This document shows positions 23,807 through 54,071 of a DNA stretch of 64,000 nt, in pieces. The translations under genes were made by a program, and so were the position numbers. The notes beneath the pieces were generated by a model that saw only the letters and a program-made list of their open reading frames with translations, was not told the DNA's origin and made no database searches. Source of the stretch: a virus; IMG/VR virus record IMGVR_UViG_3300035681_000001, positions 1 through 64,000 of that record; one strand, written 5' to 3'. Position 1 is the stretch's first letter. Every line of letters begins with the position of its first letter.

Positions 23807-24193
23807 ATGGACGGTGCAGAATGCCTAACTCTTTCAGACTACGTCAACAAGAAAAAGGTCAGGCAACTACATCGACAAGCTATTTTCAGAGCTTTTGACC
23901 ATAAGTGCGCTTATTGTGGCAGTCCAGCTCAAAGCTTAGATCACGTTAAACCACGTCACAAAGGAGGTCAAAACCTTAGTTCTAACTTAGTACCTGCTTG
24001 TTTAGAGTGTAATCAAACCAAAGGTAGCTCTGACTTATGGGACTTCTACCACAAAGGTCAGGCTTTTTATTCAGCTAGTAGAGCTGAATTTTTAAAACAG
24101 TGGGTTTCAGGTGAAATCTTAGCGTTAAGGGCACTAAGTGTTGAAGAACTCGGCAAAGACAACGTGCACATATTCTTAGTAGGTTTCAACTAA
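23807..24193 (+). CDS. HNH endonuclease
   Basis: A 128-aa protein with a complete HNH module: CAYCGSPAQSLDHVKPRHKG, then GGQNLSSNLVPACLECNQTKG. Both zinc CxxC pairs, the catalytic His of LDHV and the Asn of the N/L-N-L-V-P strand are present. Free-standing HNH nucleases in phages act as homing enzymes or assist terminase cutting. It is the first plus-strand gene after the adhesin block, just before the intron-containing JAB gene. The end of the gene abuts a copy of the recurring motif (24193). Confidence 0.88.
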   Translation: MDGAECLTLSDYVNKKKVRQLHRQAIFRAFDHKCAYCGSPAQSLDHVKPRHKGGQNLSSNLVPACLECNQTKGSSDLWDFYHKGQAFYSASRAEFLKQWVSGEILALRALSVEELGKDNVHIFLVGFN

Positions 24194-24230: not shown

Positions 24231-26977
24231 ATGTCTGAAGGTGCTGAAGCGCCAACCTTAGAACCTTTTGTAAGAGGTAAAAAGGGCTGCCTTAAACTCG
24301 TTACTTCTCCATATTGGGGTAGTTGGTATAAACAAGTAGACGATCCTAAAGGTAAAGACGTAGACGCAAAAGAACTGCTAGAGCAATTTTGGATTAAAGA
24401 GTCGTTTGATAAAGTACCACTACAGCAGCTACGTAGGGTGGTTACCTTTTATAGACGTTATGTGTCTAACGTAGCAGCCAACTCGACAGTAGATACTAAT
24501 GAAGTACAAGTTTTGCTGCTGCGATCAGAAACTGATATTACAGCATGGAAAATCCTAGTTCCTAAACAAATCATTACACCCGGAACAGTCGAAGCAGTAA
24601 CTCATCCGTCTTGTGATTTAGAAACTGGTGAAGATCACTTGGTGTTTCCGCCTGAAGGGTGGGCTCATGCTGGTAGTAGCCACTCCCATAACACTATGGG
24701 TAAAAGATCCTGAAGTCTGAGTAGAATAAGGCTAATTTGTAGTCTTACTTTGCTTACTTACGCAAATCCCCGCGACGTACACGTGCGCCAAAAAGTGGTT
24801 GAACTTTTTAATAAAGGGTTTACACCACAAGAGATTCAACAAGAACTAGGTCTCCGCTACTGGCAACCTGTTTATAACGTGCTTAAAAAAGCTGGAATCT
24901 ACGAAAAGAGATCTACTAGGTACCATCGTAAGTATTTTTTTAACGAAAACTACTTCGATAATATCAATACAGAAGACAAAGCTTATTTCTTTGGTTTTCT
25001 TGCAGCAGATGGATGTATTGATTCTGATGCACAAAGGGTAAAAATAGCCCTTCAAGAAAAGGACTCAGATATCTTGTATAAGATGGTTTCTTACTTAAAC
25101 GCAAACTTTGAGCCAAAGTTTGTAAAACACCATTCTTATAATCAAGTTCATCTGTGTTTAAACTCAAAGGTTTTTAGGCACGCTCTTATACAAAAAGGTA
25201 TGAAACCCAGAAAATCTTTAACCATGAGTGCAGAGTTAACCGACTCAATCCCTGAACACCTAATAAGGCACTTTCTTAGAGGGTACTGTGATGGAGACGG
25301 TAATATATTCCTAGGAAAAAGATATAAGTCTGGGGTTAAATTCTCTGTATCAGTCATAGGGACTAAAGAATTTCTTAAATCGTCTTTTCTTAAGCACTGT
25401 TCTAGTAACTCTCCTCTCTCAAAGTATAACTCTTGTGAGATGTGGTGCTGGAAAACAGCCAAGATAGATCACGTATTTGAGTTCCTTAAATACATCTATC
25501 AAGATGCAACAGTCTACTTAGATCGTAAGTACAAATACGTAGGGGATTACGTAACTTCAGAATGTGCCCATATAAAATCAGGTGAATTGCTGGAAATCTT
25601 CCTGCCTAAGGCAAAAGACAATCAGCAGCCAAGTCTACTTGCTCAAAGTAAGTAGAAAGGTTCAGAGACTATCCCGAAAGGGAGTACGCTCAAGCGAGCG
25701 GAAGCGCCTGAATACCTATAGTTTAACTATAGGTATAAGATATAGTCCCATCCCGCATGACCGCGTTAGAGTCATAATACCGAAAGGGCGGATGTCTGTG
25801 TAGCGAACAGACACGTAAGTAATTGGCATTCTTTTCAGGTAAAGACGACCGAGGCGAACTAACCGTACCGGGCTTGCACTTTGTAATTGGTAGGATTACT
25901 ACTTCTAGCTTTGAGATTAAAGCTTCAATCGTAATGAACCGTATGCGATTTCTAGTACCTCCTGATTGGGTACTAGAAATCGGAGAAATTCCTTATAAAG
26001 TACAAGATTCAATGGTAGGAGTCTTTACTGACTCTATAGCCGTACCCTACGCTGAAAAAGTAGAAACTTACGTTAAGCGAGCTAACGAAGCTGTACCTAA
26101 ACGTACCCCTTTACCTGGTAGTTATGGACCTAGGTGGACTCGTAATAATACAAACCATGCTTATAGCTGGACACCTAAAGGTAAAAGTCCAAACGCACTG
26201 GGAGACTTTTCAGACCTACTAGGAGACGTAAACGAAATTGGTTTGTACTCTAATAAAACCGTACAAATAAACGCGCGGTCTAAACCACTAAGTATGGTTG
26301 TCAAACAGCTTAATTTGCTGTTGGACGGACTTAAGTATCAACACTCTGCAGTAGTCTTTGAAGCTCTGGTAAATAAAGGATTCATCAGTGAGCAAGCTGC
26401 ACTGATAGCTGCAGGTGAAGCTACAGAAGTCGCACAGCAAGCTGAAGTGTGGAGTTTTAAAAAGCCTAGCGGACTAGCAGACCTAGTTGATAACTTCAAT
26501 GAATCAGAAACTGAACCCCCACAAGATCAGTTAGACGCTACCTTTAGTCTTTTAGCTTCGTTGCTAGGTGACTTATACGATGGTTACAACGAATCAGACG
26601 CAGTGTACGGTTTACTCTACACACTAACTCTTATTGATAAGAAAACAGTACAGCTGTATACAATTGAGTATAAAAAAGCACTTAACTGGGGAGTTTGTCT
26701 AGCTAAGCGCCTACCCAGTACGTTTGACGGTGATTGGACAAGCGTAGAAAAACTAGCTGTGGTGCTGAAATCTTTAATAAAAGATGACCACTACCGTAAA
26801 ATAGTTTACGGAATTCTGTTGAACGTAGGGTACCTAGAAGCCGAAAACCTACCAGTTGACAGCACCACGGCTGAACTTTGGCGGCGTAGCGCTGCTGAAT
26901 TTACCGATACCAATACTGATACTGACTTAGGTTTGGCAGCCACTCACTACGAACCTGATTGGACTGATCGTATTTAA
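24231..26977 (+). CDS. JAB/JAMM (PRTRC-A-like) isopeptidase, gene split by a group I intron
   Basis: Exon 1 is 24231-24701 (157 codons) and exon 2 is 25826-26977, giving a 540-aa product after splicing. Exon 1 ends HSHNTMG and exon 2 starts AFFSGKDD. Joined, they make the JAMM signature H-x-H-x7-S-x-x-D (H151, H153, S161, D164), so the metalloprotease site exists only in the spliced message. The rest of exon 1 and the first ~60 residues of exon 2 form the JAB fold; the C-terminal ~300 residues are helical and unassigned. It is followed with no gap by an E2/PRTRC-B-like gene and a ThiF-like gene. It likely removes or matures a ubiquitin-like protein. Splice sites are inferred from frame, motif, T at the exon end and G at the intron end. 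Confidence 0.88.
24702..25825 (+). mobile_element. group I intron in the JAB gene
   Basis: About 1124 bp. Core landmarks: GAATTGCTGGAAATC (25583-25597, P3/P4 side), AATCAGCAGCCAAG (25620-25633, P4-P6 region), TTCAGAGACTA (about 25661-25671) and AAGATATAGTCC (25737-25748), the last two forming P7. A perfect stem ATACCTATAGTT/AACTATAGGTAT (25712-25735) fits P8. The preceding exon ends in T and the intron ends in G, as group I introns require. It carries a homing nuclease gene. Exact ends could shift slightly. Confidence 0.88.
24750..25655 (+). CDS. LAGLIDADG homing endonuclease (intron-encoded)
   Basis: A 301-aa protein. An N-terminal HTH (~residues 10-55, GFTPQEIQQELGLRYWQPVY) precedes two LAGLIDADG helices: AYFFGFLAADGCIDSD at ~80 and LIRHFLRGYCDGDGNIF at ~180. 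Both retain the acidic residue, so it is probably active and cuts intronless alleles at the JAMM site. The last ~24 codons run through the intron core (GELLEIF..., KDNQQPSLL), so the same bases serve the protein and the ribozyme. Confidence 0.88.
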   Translation: MLTYANPRDVHVRQKVVELFNKGFTPQEIQQELGLRYWQPVYNVLKKAGIYEKRSTRYHRKYFFNENYFDNINTEDKAYFFGFLAADGCIDSDAQRVKIALQEKDSDILYKMVSYLNANFEPKFVKHHSYNQVHLCLNSKVFRHALIQKGMKPRKSLTMSAELTDSIPEHLIRHFLRGYCDGDGNIFLGKRYKSGVKFSVSVIGTKEFLKSSFLKHCSSNSPLSKYNSCEMWCWKTAKIDHVFEFLKYIYQDATVYLDRKYKYVGDYVTSECAHIKSGELLEIFLPKAKDNQQPSLLAQSK

Positions 26978-28066
26978 ATGAGCACTTTCACTCTAGCTAC
27001 AGAGCAACCTACACCTACCAGAAAGACTATTGCCAGAGGTCGCCATAAATTTATTGCTTTCCCTGGCGAAACCCAAAAGGCACTGTTTTCATACACACTT
27101 GGTGGTTCATCACACCAATGCTTAGACGTTAATGGTAGTACTAGAAGAATACCACAAAATTATCATTCTGTAAGAATTTTCACTATCACAGCACCTAGAA
27201 CTGCTCTGGTACCTTTACCAGAATCTGGAGATCAAAAGAAATGGTTAAATATTTTTACTGAAAGAACTTGCAAAAACTGCTCGCACTTAGCGCAACCAGC
27301 TCTAGCTGTACAGTCTGCTTTTCTAGCAGACCGCAACATAATAAACCTTAAAATAGACGCACTAGAACGAGTAGTAGCTAGGTATCAAACTGGAACTTGT
27401 AAAGGTGTACAAGCACATCAAACAGGTATTTGTCCTGCCTCACACAACATAGCTGAGGGCTTGTCCTCATTGGACACTGCAGTTATGCAAGTTCCTGCTT
27501 TGTGTCTAATGTCTACTTATACTAGTCAAACAGACCTACTAGCCTTTAGCGAAAGGGAGTACAACCTTTTTGCTTATCGAGAAACTGATCAAAAAGTAGG
27601 CCCTTACTGCCCAGCTAATGTGCACTCATCAGGAAAAATCTGTTGGGGTAGAGAAATGCAAAACAGCAACGTTAAACCTCGCACACCTAAAGAAGCGTTG
27701 TCTATGTACTGGGGGTCTGGTTTTAACCAAGACTTAGCGTCTCAACGGGGCTCAAGTCTAAAAACTACTTTAGAAAACTATCGACAAACTGAAACTAGTT
27801 ACGGAAAACTACAAAATTATTTGCACGAGCATAAATACGGTACCAGCCAACCGTGTGTCGGCATCTATTTAAGCTCTTACAGAAACTTGTTGCAAAAAGT
27901 TCCTGCTGAGCACCACATAAAATTAGGAGAAGAGACAATGGTACTAGCTTGGGTCTTATACGCTGAACCAGAAAGGTACGTACTAGATTGCAACGGCTTT
28001 CTGGTAGAAATGAGTAAATTAAATGGCTCCTCCACAGTAAACATCCATAACCTTACTGAATCCTGA
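26978..28066 (+). CDS. PRTRC-B / E2-like protein of the ubiquitin-like cassette
   Basis: A 362-aa Cys-rich protein starting directly after the JAB stop. The segment YCPANVHSSGKICWG (~residues 210-224), followed ~30 residues on by MYWGSGFNQD, matches the 'PNV..dG.iCwG...fw.S.Fn' pattern of PRTRC system protein B and the prokaryotic E2-like family (from memory). C211 and C222 are candidate active-site Cys; C98, C101, C141 and C152 could bind metal. Probable role: receive a ubiquitin-like protein from the ThiF-like partner and pass it on. Its stop overlaps the ThiF start as TGATG. Family call is by pattern only. Confidence 0.72.
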   Translation: MSTFTLATEQPTPTRKTIARGRHKFIAFPGETQKALFSYTLGGSSHQCLDVNGSTRRIPQNYHSVRIFTITAPRTALVPLPESGDQKKWLNIFTERTCKNCSHLAQPALAVQSAFLADRNIINLKIDALERVVARYQTGTCKGVQAHQTGICPASHNIAEGLSSLDTAVMQVPALCLMSTYTSQTDLLAFSEREYNLFAYRETDQKVGPYCPANVHSSGKICWGREMQNSNVKPRTPKEALSMYWGSGFNQDLASQRGSSLKTTLENYRQTETSYGKLQNYLHEHKYGTSQPCVGIYLSSYRNLLQKVPAEHHIKLGEETMVLAWVLYAEPERYVLDCNGFLVEMSKLNGSSTVNIHNLTES

Positions 28067-28854
28067 TGAAATTCGACCAAGTTCACCTAGTAGGTCTGGG
28101 TGGTACCGGTTCGTACTTAGCTAAACCTCTTACTAGGTTGCTTAAATACCACAACCAAGGTACGACTAACTTACACTTCTGGGATAAAGACCTAGTAGAA
28201 CCACACAACCTGATCCGCCAAGACTTTGGTGCTGAAGCTGTAGACCAAAATAAAGCTGAAATCATGGCCTCAGAACTAAAGTCTATCAACCCTTACATCC
28301 GAGTACACACTGGTTGGTTTGTACCTGATACCCTAAACGAATGGTTGACTCAACAGCCAGCTAACAATTTGTTAATAGTACTGGCTGTTGATAACGACGC
28401 CACGCGTAATGCAATCATCGTAGAACTAGATGCAATGCCCAACCAAGACTTTGTGCTAGTACTGCCAGGTAATGGCTATGACACCGGCAATACTTATTGG
28501 TACGGTAGGCAAGGTAGCGAAACAGCTCCTGTACACCCGTTCGACGTAGCGGATAACTGGGCTTTTCCGCAAGACGGTTTGCCTGGAGATTGTGCAGAAG
28601 AAGCTAAGTCTACACCTCAACTTATAACCAGTAACTTTTCCCAAGCACTATGTTCGTTGGAGATCGTACTAGGGCTATTGAACGACACACCTATGCCATT
28701 CAAAATGGATTACTCGGGTCCTAATTTCAGTATTCGAGCAGAAGGTAAACCTACGTACTTTCCTAGCTTGATTAAACCTGAACCCGTGGTAGTGGCGGCT
28801 CCTGCAGCCCCAGTAGTAGAGCCCGAACTCCCAGTAGTTGACTTGTTCTGTTAA
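28066..28854 (+). CDS. ThiF/E1-like activating enzyme
   Basis: A 262-aa protein with a Rossmann fold typical of ThiF/MoeB/E1: GLGGTGS at residues 10-16, FWDKDLVEPHNLIRQDF at 38-54 and Q61-x-K63. These supply the adenylation residues (D42, N48, R51, Q52, K63). Candidate thiol residues are C176 (in DCAEEA) and C196. A Pro/Val/Ala-rich tail ends in FC. It is closest in layout to the PRTRC ThiF protein: short, single domain, no rhodanese or MoeZ part. Expected reaction: adenylate the C-terminus of a ubiquitin-like protein. It is coupled to the upstream E2-like gene and converges on virion genes with 1 bp between stops. Confidence 0.9.
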   Translation: MKFDQVHLVGLGGTGSYLAKPLTRLLKYHNQGTTNLHFWDKDLVEPHNLIRQDFGAEAVDQNKAEIMASELKSINPYIRVHTGWFVPDTLNEWLTQQPANNLLIVLAVDNDATRNAIIVELDAMPNQDFVLVLPGNGYDTGNTYWYGRQGSETAPVHPFDVADNWAFPQDGLPGDCAEEAKSTPQLITSNFSQALCSLEIVLGLLNDTPMPFKMDYSGPNFSIRAEGKPTYFPSLIKPEPVVVAAPAAPVVEPELPVVDLFC

Positions 28855-34702: not shown

Positions 34703-36476
34703 CTTTTCAGGTCAAGAGCTAATGGTAGCTACAGCCTGGTCAAAAGATCCGGCTATGGAGCGAGCTTTTACAGAACCTGAAGTCTTAACCTTACCTGATG
34801 GTACTACTTACAAAAACCCATACGCTGACCTGCACACACTAACGGCAGTTAAGTGCTGTGCCCCAGCATTATTCCAGGGAGTCCCAGAACACGAGTGGGT
34901 AAGTAACGCTAAAGAAAACGGATCTAGACACAACGGTAAAACTACAAACTTTGGGATTATCTTTGATCAAACAGCAGAATCTCTATCACTACTCAACCAC
35001 GTTAAACTGACTGAAACTGAGCAATGGGTAAAAGGCCACAAGCAAACCTACGCAGGTTATCACCACTGGGCTGAAGAATACGGAGCTATAGCTGCCGCTC
35101 GCGGCTTTGCTGTTAGCCCGGTGTCTAAAGCTATTCGCTGGGTAGATGAAGAAAACTCCAAAGGTGGTGGGGAATCGCCAGCTAGAGCTGCGGTTAATTA
35201 TGCCATCCAAGGGGAATCTAGTATGATAACCAAGGAATGTTTGATCAGGTTATATGAAACTTTGCCACCAGAAATAAGAATACTAAATACAGTCCACGAT
35301 AGATTTTGTCGTGGTTAAATAACTTTAATTGCTGGAAACTCCTTAGAGCTTAACTCACCACAACGTAGTCGGCAACGACAAGCGTGACGGTTCAAAAAGA
35401 GTTATGATTGGGTCTAGTACTTTGTCTGACTAGCAGTGTAAGACTGAAAGCTCCACTTGTATTGGTAACAGCTAATGGGACAGGGACCAATCCACTCAAG
35501 AAAAGCAGGAATGCTCTTTTTAGAGAGGAATATTTTACCTTTACCGTCAGTTCGTGAGCGAAAACCCAACGACTTGAGTTGAATCACAAGTCGTTGTCGT
35601 TCAGCCAATGTAAAAGAATGGGCTGCAAATGCAATTTGTCTTAGGTATCCGTTGCAGGAGTCAAAGCCTCCATCACCGATGTACCACATAGATGCAGCTA
35701 AAGGGGTTAGTTGTAAATCCCGAGGAAGAATCTTTTTCTTCTCCGGATACCAGCGATGCCAAAAAGGTATGAGAAAATCCGATCTCAATGAGTCTACTTG
35801 GTAGGTTACACCTGTTGAGTAACCATTAGGTTTAGACTGGAGGTTAGGAGAAAAAGGAACGGATTTGCCTAGCTGGGCTCTAACCCAAATAGAAAAGTCC
35901 TTTTCTTTACAGTTATAACCAAATCTCGGGCGCCCTAAAGGTGTTTTCGAGTAGTTGGTTAAATAACCATCTCCTAACAGCAGACCATCCAGTAAGCTTC
36001 TCATTAAGCTAGCAACATTTGCTTAAGTTTAGCACTATCGGTTATACAGAAGAAAAATCCTGATGGACAATCAGCAGCCAAGGGTCTAGGCTGTAACCAG
36101 CTTAGATCAAGGTTCATCGGCTATCGCGGAAGCGAGTAGGACTCAAGAGAGTTCGAAACGGGTTACTAGTGAAAACTAGAAGATATAGTCAGAACTTTTG
36201 CGAAAGCAAAAGAAGCCTTACGGAATCGGTAAGGCTGCAACACTAACGGAGATCAATTTTGAGGCGCCAGGCCGATGTTGGCTAGACTTAGATCGCTCTA
36301 AATTTGATAATAACTTACTAATAAACCCTGTGTTTGCTTACGATGAACAAGCTCTAGCTACAGCAGAACGCATTACGCAATTAATGGTAAACACTGAAAC
36401 CGAGTTCTTTCAGGCTGCCGGCTCACCTATTCAAGGTCGAGCCGAATACGCTATAGCCCCTTATTGGAAACACTAG
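34617..36476 (+). CDS. polA: DNA polymerase A, C-terminal piece, split by a group I intron
   Basis: Exon 1 is 34617-35300 (228 codons) and exon 2 is 36249-36476, giving about 303 aa. PolA similarity starts near PRQSFVTKGKVW. Motif A is ISVDFSGQELM; motif B is RHNGKTTNFGIIF (Arg, Lys and NFG in place); motif C is TVHD^EINFE, split between D and E by the intron. Joined to the N-terminal piece it gives a complete family A polymerase (exo plus pol, no 5' nuclease). Start codon of this chain is uncertain, because the upstream join is not understood. Confidence 0.85.
35301..36248 (+). mobile_element. group I intron in DNA polymerase motif C
   Basis: About 948 bp. The 5' part has AATTGCTGGAAACTC (35328-35342 region, P3/P4). 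The 3' part has AATCAGCAGCCAAG (36069-36082) and AAGATATAGTCAG (36180-36192), which match the JAB-gene intron nearly base for base. Exon 1 ends in T, the intron ends in G, and splicing restores TVHDEINF. The endonuclease gene inside lies on the opposite strand. Confidence 0.9.
35414..36004 (-). CDS. LAGLIDADG homing endonuclease encoded antisense within the intron
   Basis: A 196-aa protein starting at ATG 36004. Two LAGLIDADG helices are visible: SLLDGLLLGDGYL at residues 3-15 and LAASMWYIGDGGFD at ~103-116, both with Gly-Asp. The layout (LLDGLLLGDG, then MWYxGDG, then LK.LGF.) matches the LAGLIDADG type used by chloroplast and phage introns. It is read against the direction of the polymerase gene, so it cannot be translated from the intron-bearing transcript and must have its own promoter. 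Confidence 0.88.
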   Translation of the reverse strand: MRSLLDGLLLGDGYLTNYSKTPLGRPRFGYNCKEKDFSIWVRAQLGKSVPFSPNLQSKPNGYSTGVTYQVDSLRSDFLIPFWHRWYPEKKKILPRDLQLTPLAASMWYIGDGGFDSCNGYLRQIAFAAHSFTLAERQRLVIQLKSLGFRSRTDGKGKIFLSKKSIPAFLEWIGPCPISCYQYKWSFQSYTASQTKY

Positions 36477-51473: not shown

Positions 51474-51679
51474 CTGCCGAGCCTTTGATAACAGCTCAAA
51501 AAATGACTGCCAAGGACGGTACCACCTTAGGCTGGTACTTTTGTCATCCAGAATTTTACTGTGACTTTGAGCTAGAAAACGGAGTTTGGAGCGTGTACTT
51601 CAGAGATAGAACAAATCAGGCTAAAAACAGCGAGGTTTATGCTGAGACAACAAGCAACAGAAAGGCTGCTCCTCCTTAA
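51470..51679 (+). CDS. small hypothetical protein (69 aa)
   Basis: A 69-aa protein with a beta-rich core (GTTLGWYFCHPEFYCDFELE). Coupled to the membrane protein gene by ATGA. The last ~10 residues overlap the frame of the next gene. No family recognised. Confidence 0.55.
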   Translation: MTAEPLITAQKMTAKDGTTLGWYFCHPEFYCDFELENGVWSVYFRDRTNQAKNSEVYAETTSNRKAAPP

Positions 51680-51692
51680 GGCAGTACTACCT

Positions 51693-51914
51693 ATGAAGGT
51701 AAACTTACGTTTACACGACGGTGTAACTAACCAAGAAATAAAACTCTTCCCAACCCCAAGTAGGATTACGTTCCAATGTTTAGCTGAAGCCGAGCCTGCT
51801 AAGATACGTGAACGTTATTTAAAATGGCTGGCCACTAAACTACCTGCAGAAATAGTAAGCCCACACGTATCAGAAGTGCTAGCTGTTAAAAAACCTAAGT
51901 TCTCAAAAGACTAA
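51693..51914 (+). CDS. small hypothetical protein (73 aa)
   Basis: Start at ATG 51693 (MKVNLRLHDGVTNQEIKLFP). The frame is open from 51639 but its upstream part shadows the previous gene. Basic C-terminus (VKKPKFSKD). Family unknown. Confidence 0.55.
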   Translation: MKVNLRLHDGVTNQEIKLFPTPSRITFQCLAEAEPAKIRERYLKWLATKLPAEIVSPHVSEVLAVKKPKFSKD

Positions 51915-52880: not shown

Positions 52881-54071
52881 ATGAATGCCGCTGCACTTCA
52901 AGAAATTCTGACTCTGAGTCAAGTAGCTAAAAGTTACGGTATCGAACTAGGTGGTAATGAGTCTCAGACCTGCCCTTTTTGTGGCGGTGCTCGACAACTA
53001 CGTACTACCCGAAACCGTTGGTATAAGTGCTACAAATGCAACCGTAAAGGAGACATATACCAACTGCTACAAGACCTAAAAGTTACTAATAGCTTTAAAG
53101 AATCTTTCAACATACTAAAACGTCAAGCTGTTAATTCCCCTGAATACAAAGCTTATCGCTTTAGAGTTGACGTACTAACCAGAGCTTTTGAAGCTTACCG
53201 ACAGCGAGTTGTAGTAAAACCAGATGCCCCGCTAGGGTATTATGCTGGCCGGGGTTGGACTTTTAGGCACGGAGAAATAGGTTACGCAGATTCACACCAT
53301 ACCTTACGTAACGCAGGGTTCAGCGTGGAAGAACTAACTGCGGTAAGCTTAATAGCCTACGGTACTGAAGTATACTCAAACCACTTAATATTCCCCATAC
53401 ACAACTACGAAGGTGAAGTGGTTCACTTTTCAGCTCGTGCTCTAGACCCTACTGATGAGCTTAGATGGAAACATACTTCTGGTACACCACGTATTAACAA
53501 CTTTTTGTACGCAGCTAACAACTTAAAAGAGTCCAGCTACGCTGTAATATGCGAGGGTATTTCAGACACTCGCTCGCTAATAGAACTCGGTGAGCCTGCT
53601 GTAGGTGTACTCGGTGTCACTATACCCCTAGTACAACATGCTAACTTGTTTCGACATTGCAAGTGCCTAGTGGCTTTCTTTGATCGAGACCGTTACGCCA
53701 AAGGAACTGAAAAAGAAGGTCAATACAAATCCTGGTCTCAGGTCACACCACACCTAATAGATCTAGCTGTAGAACTCAAGATCCCAGTGTTGTGTTTGAT
53801 GACACCAGATTGGTCTGGCGTCAAAGATGCTAACGAATACCTCAGTGCTATAGACTATGACCTAAGCACTTATCAAAAGTGGGCATCCAAGTCTTACCAG
53901 CACTTACACGTACTAGCTGCAGAAATACACACTAACGACTTAAGTCAGCACCCTAATTTGTGGAGACTGCACGCTGCAGTACCTAACGCACCAGCCTTAG
54001 AACAATTACAAAACACGATACTACAACAGCACACCAGTTGGGCAGACTACCTTTTAGCACTACATGCCTAA
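52881..54071 (+). CDS. DnaG-like DNA primase
   Basis: A 396-aa primase. A zinc ribbon lies at C31, C34, C50 and C53 (CPFCGGARQL; YKCYKC). The catalytic TOPRIM region includes YAVICEGISDTRSLIE followed by GVLGVTIPL and LVAFFDRDRYAKG (the E and DxD residues). No helicase domain is fused. It would lay primers for the phage replisome. It begins 35 bp after the tRNA-like element. Confidence 0.9.
   Translation: MNAAALQEILTLSQVAKSYGIELGGNESQTCPFCGGARQLRTTRNRWYKCYKCNRKGDIYQLLQDLKVTNSFKESFNILKRQAVNSPEYKAYRFRVDVLTRAFEAYRQRVVVKPDAPLGYYAGRGWTFRHGEIGYADSHHTLRNAGFSVEELTAVSLIAYGTEVYSNHLIFPIHNYEGEVVHFSARALDPTDELRWKHTSGTPRINNFLYAANNLKESSYAVICEGISDTRSLIELGEPAVGVLGVTIPLVQHANLFRHCKCLVAFFDRDRYAKGTEKEGQYKSWSQVTPHLIDLAVELKIPVLCLMTPDWSGVKDANEYLSAIDYDLSTYQKWASKSYQHLHVLAAEIHTNDLSQHPNLWRLHAAVPNAPALEQLQNTILQQHTSWADYLLALHA

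Follow-up and report, generated by a model that had tools for sequence, protein, structure and literature searches.

The gene for a JAMM (JAB-fold) protein in the window studied here, i.e., the first 64 kb (64,000 nucleotides) of a 189,763-base virus record, is split within its active-site motif by a group I intron. The intron (1124 nt, plus strand; Table 1) is inserted between codons 157 and 158 of the gene, between the sequences HSHNTMG and AFFSGKD. Exon 1 ends with CAT AAC ACT ATG GGT, its last base (24701) being a T, exon 2 starts at 25826 with GCA TTC TTT TCA (AFFSGKDD), and the last base of the intron (25825) is a G. The joined exons encode 540 residues, with HSHNTMGAFFSGKD at residues 151-164. 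An earlier note on this DNA had described a group I intron splitting the JAMM motif, with a T at the exon end, a G at the intron end and a restored frame, and had claimed that H-x-H-x7-S-x-x-D arises only at the exon junction. These observations are confirmed: the Rfam core, the junction and the motif of the family agree, and the two halves of the motif lie in separate exons. The span that the note gave, 24691-25836, is correct for the motif, although the intron proper is confined to 24702-25825. Unspliced RNA would add only KRS to exon 1 before a stop, which is the fourth codon of the intron. As a whole, the data are best explained by a mobile group IA2 intron with a LAGLIDADG endonuclease that was inserted in a phage JAMM (MPN+) isopeptidase gene, an explanation that we consider very probable.

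Table 1. Positions in the window of the split JAMM gene, its intron and the two genes downstream.
Feature	Position	Strand	Remarks
JAMM gene, exon 1	24231-24701	+	157 aa
Putative catalytic Glu E91	24501-24503	+	exon 1
Predicted zinc ligand H151	24681-24683	+	exon 1
Predicted zinc ligand H153	24687-24689	+	exon 1
Group I intron, subgroup IA2	24702-25825	+	P7.1/P7.2 joined by GUA; 3' G at 25825
TGA stopping the exon 1 frame in unspliced RNA	24711-24713	+	product ...TMGKRS, 160 aa
Best U.G-anchored guide (GUCUG) for P1	24715-24719	+	pairs with exon UGGGU (24697-24701); weak
P2 hairpin (predicted)	24719-24755	+	
LAGLIDADG homing endonuclease ORF	24750-25655	+	TTG start, 301 aa, inside intron
Catalytic core P3-P8	25578-25748	+	
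P3, 5' strand	25578-25584	+	
P7, 5' strand (R)	25660-25671	+	
P7.1	25672-25683	+	followed by GUA linker
P7.2	25687-25700	+	
P8	25714-25734	+	
P7, 3' strand (S)	25737-25748	+	
P9.2-type hairpin	25793-25813	+	
JAMM gene, exon 2	25826-26977	+	383 aa + stop
S161	25835-25837	+	exon 2
Predicted zinc ligand D164	25844-25846	+	exon 2
E2-like gene	26978-28066	+	Prok-E2_D PF14460, E=8.4e-4 (L003 orthologue 9.1e-6)
ThiF/E1-like gene	28066-28854	+	PF00899, 2.9e-14

The position of the junction was examined by shifting it over 17 positions (-8 to +8). Since all 17 shifts preserve, by construction, both the reading frame and the H.H.{7}S..D spacing, the frame alone cannot fix the junction. Only shift 0 combines a T before the 5' splice site, a G before the 3' splice site and the family-invariant residues. 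Among the rejected positions, shifts -8 to -6 produce an in-frame stop inside the motif, shifts -4 and +1 to +3 alter a family-invariant residue (M157 or A159 of the relative L003, see below), and shifts -3 to -1 have neither a U ahead of the 5' site nor a G at the intron end. A 3' site ahead of a UUCAGG match in exon 2 (see below) was also rejected, the frame then being broken.

An uninterrupted copy of the gene is present on IMG/VR contig IMGVR_UViG_3300007177_000055 (locus L003), where it encodes a protein of 541 aa (HSHNTMSAFFSPKD) with the motif in a single 541-codon frame (HSHNTMSAFFSPKDDRGEL). The joined DNA of the window aligns with L003 with no base lost or gained, exon 1 shows 73% identity to it, and all catalytic residues are kept in both phages. 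The gene order is also the same, i.e., HNH endonuclease, JAMM gene, E2-like gene and ThiF gene. No Rfam intron was found in L003 and no copy of the JAMM-intron endonuclease in the 125-kb record to which it belongs. The earlier note had proposed a comparison with intronless relatives and had stated that a different sequence at their junction would speak against its reading; L003 is continuous across the site with the same motif, and Salmonella phage Arash, whose motif (HSHNTMGAFFSG) is equal to that of the spliced window over 12 residues, agrees as well. In scans of IMG/VR, exon 1 (the L003 contig) and the ThiF protein each retrieved one relative and exon 2 retrieved none, and scans with three two-row alignments returned the L003 contig again each time; tblastn of the phage collection gave no relative with either exon 2 or the E2 protein of L003. 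According to these scans, the close family consists here of two phages.

The identity of the split gene becomes apparent only from the joined exons. Neither exon alone matched the JAB families at E<=1, while the joined 215-residue stretch matched Prok-JAB (PF14464) at E=2.3e-4, below the Pfam cut-off, and PRTRC_A (TIGR03735) at E=3.3e-4 and 20.3 bits, far below the cut-off of 101.8. Both the window and L003 thus match these two families weakly. Uninterrupted distant relatives were found in nine records, namely Salmonella phage Arash, Vibrio phages D69, D181 and D148, a faecal phage scaffold and four plasmids (of Brevibacillus, Peribacillus, Rossellomorea and Subdoligranulum). Arash (77 bits) and D69 (72 bits) stay below the PRTRC_A cut-off (102) and pass the Pfam cut-off for Prok-JAB. 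When L003 was aligned with six of the nine distant records, from phages and plasmids, E, P, Q, HSHN.M.A.FS..D, V and G were invariant in all seven rows. A profile scan of bacterial genomes yielded 61 loci, 45 of which were aligned; the other 16 were dropped by eye (near-duplicates, short or truncated rows and one locus, L024, with unread bases). The sequence HSHNxMxA[FY]FSxxD is common to the six distant relatives and the 45 bacterial rows, and the Ser and Asp occur in 46 of 46 rows (L003 and the 45 bacterial ones) though the search pattern did not demand them. That pattern did demand an unbroken motif, and the 61 loci are, therefore, no evidence that bacteria lack introns at this site. The JAMM/MPN+ motif E...H-x-H-x7-S-x2-D is present, and its H, H, S and D are invariant in the alignments. 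The Glu is less certain than these four residues: the seven-row alignment assigns it to E91, but in the 48-row MAFFT alignment it lies two columns off E92 of L003. The catalytic Glu is probably E91.

The predicted structure points in the same direction. An AlphaFold model of residues 1-215 of the intronless orthologue L003, based on 48 rows (pLDDT 76, pTM 0.71), adopts a JAB/MPN fold; a model of the full 541-aa protein from three rows (pLDDT 34) was set aside in favour of this domain. All 50 matches listed by VIA-align are, by title, JAMM/MPN proteins or complexes with them (Z 9.4-11.6), the best being JAMM1 of P. furiosus (5lda; Z 11.6, 2.8 A over 123 residues), and AMSH and Rpn11 homologues also occur among them. 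Foldseek also led to this family, though its scores were modest (lowest E, 3.8e-4), and a comparison of the sequence profile with the PDB gave weak matches (best AMSH, E=0.11) with the motif in register. The call of a JAMM motif in the earlier note is, consequently, upheld by both the family-invariant motif and the predicted fold. With these residues intact and this fold, the spliced product would be expected to be an active peptidase.

Active-site codons are frequently part of the sites recognised by homing endonucleases, and the insertion points of many phage group I introns are functionally critical sequences, where the gene is restored by precise deletion only (PMC2988022). The earlier note had supposed that the intron occupies the most conserved codons. 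At the protein level this holds, as the best stretch of 14 residues in the domain is the one starting with H152 of L003 (its majority fraction averages 0.78, against 0.44 for the median stretch), a conservation to which the search pattern itself contributes in part. It does not hold at the DNA level: the 40 nt around the junction are 65% identical between the window and L003 against a mean of 70%, and 73% of such stretches are equal or better. Variation is high at the amino acid that immediately precedes the insertion point, where the majority fraction is 0.20.

The intervening RNA possesses a group I core. It matches Rfam RF00028 at 25496-25769 (83.1 bits, E=1.2e-19), the region 25576-25825 folds at -84 kcal/mol (z=-5.66; 0 of 200 shuffles equal that fold), and P3-P8 as well as the R and S elements are present in the Rfam alignment. 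P7.1 and P7.2 are linked by GUA (25672-25700), the feature by which subgroup IA2 is recognised in PMC3428280. The intron also carries the gene of a LAGLIDADG homing endonuclease, which matches PF14528 (LAGLIDADG_3; 1.5e-8, 35.2 bits vs. a cut-off of 22.5) and phrog_4645 (3.1e-44) and in which both acidic motifs, FLAADG and FLRGYCDGDG, seem intact by eye. There is no ATG near the start of this ORF, and its 3' part overlaps P3-P6 of the intron core, an arrangement for which PMC3984707 provides a precedent. Relatives of the endonuclease in named phages amount to 160 records, all with <60% identity (33% for the best-ranked), and a scan of IMG/VR gave none. Rfam detected an intron at the gathering threshold in none of four loci with endonuclease relatives (L074-L077), which, therefore, offer no comparison for P1.

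We propose that the JAMM gene of a JAMM/E2-like/E1-like cassette was invaded by a mobile group IA2 intron that encodes a homing endonuclease. Unspliced RNA would then give a 160-residue protein that has the Glu and both His but is devoid of Ser161, Asp164 and the remainder. Self-splicing initiated by guanosine would bring HSHNTMG and AFFSGKD together and so complete the motif E91...H151-x-H153-x7-S161-x2-D164 in a protein of 540 residues. Alleles without the intron would be cut at the JAMM site by the endonuclease, and repair from an intron-bearing copy would spread the element. Loss of the intron would be disfavoured, since nothing short of its exact excision gives back the active site.

The pairings of the intron with its exons suggest that it may be poorly fitted to the JAMM site. 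The best P1, UGGGU/GUCUG, consists of four wobbles and one G-C pair (+4.5 kcal/mol as a hairpin, vs. -10.3 kcal/mol for P1 of an intron in the DNA polymerase gene of the same phage), and 4.5% of the 426 U positions in the spliced gene pair as well as this. No P10 pairing was found at exon 2 position +1. A P10-like match of 6 bp between CCUGAA (24709-24714, just 5' of the guide) and UUCAGG (25834-25839, exon 2 +9 to +14) is perfect but lies 8 nt too far downstream, and a match as good is reached by 3.2% of 20-mers drawn at random from the region. Some known group I introns lack a clear P10. The intron could be maladapted to the site, through recent ectopic arrival or decay of its guide, so that splicing would be inefficient and the JAMM protein scarce or absent; the weak P1 and displaced P10-like match, set against the strong P1 of the polymerase intron, and the lack of the intron in the sole known close relative are in line with this. 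However, the endonuclease ORF and intron core appear intact, and the long open exon frames and intact E2 and E1 genes are as expected with a spliced protein in use, which makes such maladaptation unlikely. It is far less likely that the split gene is non-functional, with the intron marking lost use of a JAMM site free of selection: the E2 neighbour is just 49% identical to that of the relative, but the identity of exon 1 to L003 is much higher, the catalytic residues persist in both phages and in all seven rows of the alignment, and a 383-codon open frame is kept in exon 2. A speculative possibility, to which we attach very little credence, is that the deconjugase alone is held back by the intron, whose poor P1 would cause slow or conditional splicing and thereby tune removal against conjugation, with the adjacent tail fibre proteins as perhaps the targets; E1 and E2 would then be made from any transcript and the JAMM peptidase from spliced RNA only. 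It is hardly conceivable, and in the main refuted, that the insert is an intein or that it holds a free-standing endonuclease gene flanked by two distinct genes: inteins also carry LAGLIDADG ORFs, but a TGA interrupts the frame of the insert, its group I core is complete, exon 2 begins with the second half of the invariant motif and its only plausible start of its own is a TTG at 25823.

The polymerase intron mentioned above (window 35301-36248) lies in a family A DNA polymerase gene (PF00476, 2.9e-23), where it separates VHD from EINFEAP in a catalytic motif. It scores 27.1 bits with Rfam, under the gathering score, has a strong P1 (CCACGAU/GUCGUGG) and contains a LAGLIDADG_2 endonuclease gene (PF03161, 4.1e-17) on the opposite strand (35414-36004). 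The relative whose JAMM gene is uninterrupted also carries an intron at this position of its polymerase gene (L079; G001:C1 ~53292-53485), with a LAGLIDADG_2 ORF at L079 1172-1657, and a further intron-like match upstream near QTAESL (L081; ~51623-51697). In PMC3428280 the W31 and PhiI introns are assigned to polymerase site 881; the VHD/E position is, therefore, probably already known too.

In both phages the JAMM gene is part of a cassette with the E2-like and ThiF/E1-like genes (window 24231-28854; L003 7986-11473), which adjoins the gene of a 2261-residue tail fibre protein, and a free-standing HNH endonuclease gene lies directly 5' of it (window 23807-24193; L003 7537-7947). In sequence the cassette resembles PRTRC-A/B/ThiF, with scores below the cut-offs for the other two proteins as well (ThiF of the window vs. 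PRTRC_ThiF 40 bits, cut-off 144.75; E2 of L003 vs. PRTRC_B 17.9 bits, cut-off 131.45). A search for the ubiquitin-like protein C (PF14454) was negative in both records but also in all 14 control genomes and is, therefore, uninformative.

Compared with the phage IA2 introns of T4 (td, nrdB and nrdD) and of the polymerase genes of SPO1, SP82, Bastille, Pf-WMP3, W31 and phiL7, the JAMM intron has the same GUA-linked P7.1/P7.2 (PMC3428280), U before the 5' site and terminal G, as well as a homing endonuclease ORF and an insertion point in functionally critical codons (PMC2988022). It differs from them in its weak P1, in its endonuclease, which is of the LAGLIDADG instead of the GIY-YIG or HNH type, and in its host gene, a JAMM peptidase gene of a ubiquitin-like cassette rather than one of nucleotide or DNA metabolism. 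The host protein is akin to PRTRC_A and Prok-JAB in its JAMM residues, local sequence and neighbours (resembling PRTRC_B/Prok-E2_D and PRTRC_ThiF), but is distinct from PRTRC_A in its score (20 vs. 102 bits), its length (540 aa, including an extended additional C-terminal region) and its occurrence in a phage. With the JAMM/MPN+ deubiquitinases (Pyrococcus JAMM1, AMSH, Rpn11 and the Caldiarchaeum Rpn11 homologue) it shares H-x-H-x7-S-x2-D and the predicted fold; identity in the structural alignments is below about 20%.

No JAMM-splitting intron is reported in the literature surveyed on group I introns in phages and DNA polymerases, on PRTRC and on phage ubiquitin-like/JAB systems; the papers retrieved for group I introns together with JAMM deal with other matters, judging by title and abstract, and among the PRTRC papers listed none concerns phages by title. 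JAMM is, thus, a type of host gene not met in the portion of the phage-intron literature covered, and it adds a putative ubiquitin-type deconjugase to the genes known to house phage introns. The intron itself is a new, clean example of an established pattern, i.e., introns in active-site codons, and its mechanism is ordinary; with two cases in one phage, the rule that phage introns occupy active sites is strengthened. For annotation, two seemingly unrelated hypothetical ORFs, neither recognisable alone, turn out to be one putative JAMM enzyme. The phage E1-E2-JAMM cassette beside a tail fibre gene merits study in its own right. In Salmonella phage Arash (L007 2261-4539) a ThiF-like gene that bears the annotation 'structural protein' (gp246c) comes after the JAMM relative. 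In the Peribacillus and Rossellomorea plasmids, group II intron reverse transcriptase genes are located just 3' of the JAMM gene (L011 5608-7503; L012 5511-7415), the one in L012 sitting between the JAMM and ThiF genes.
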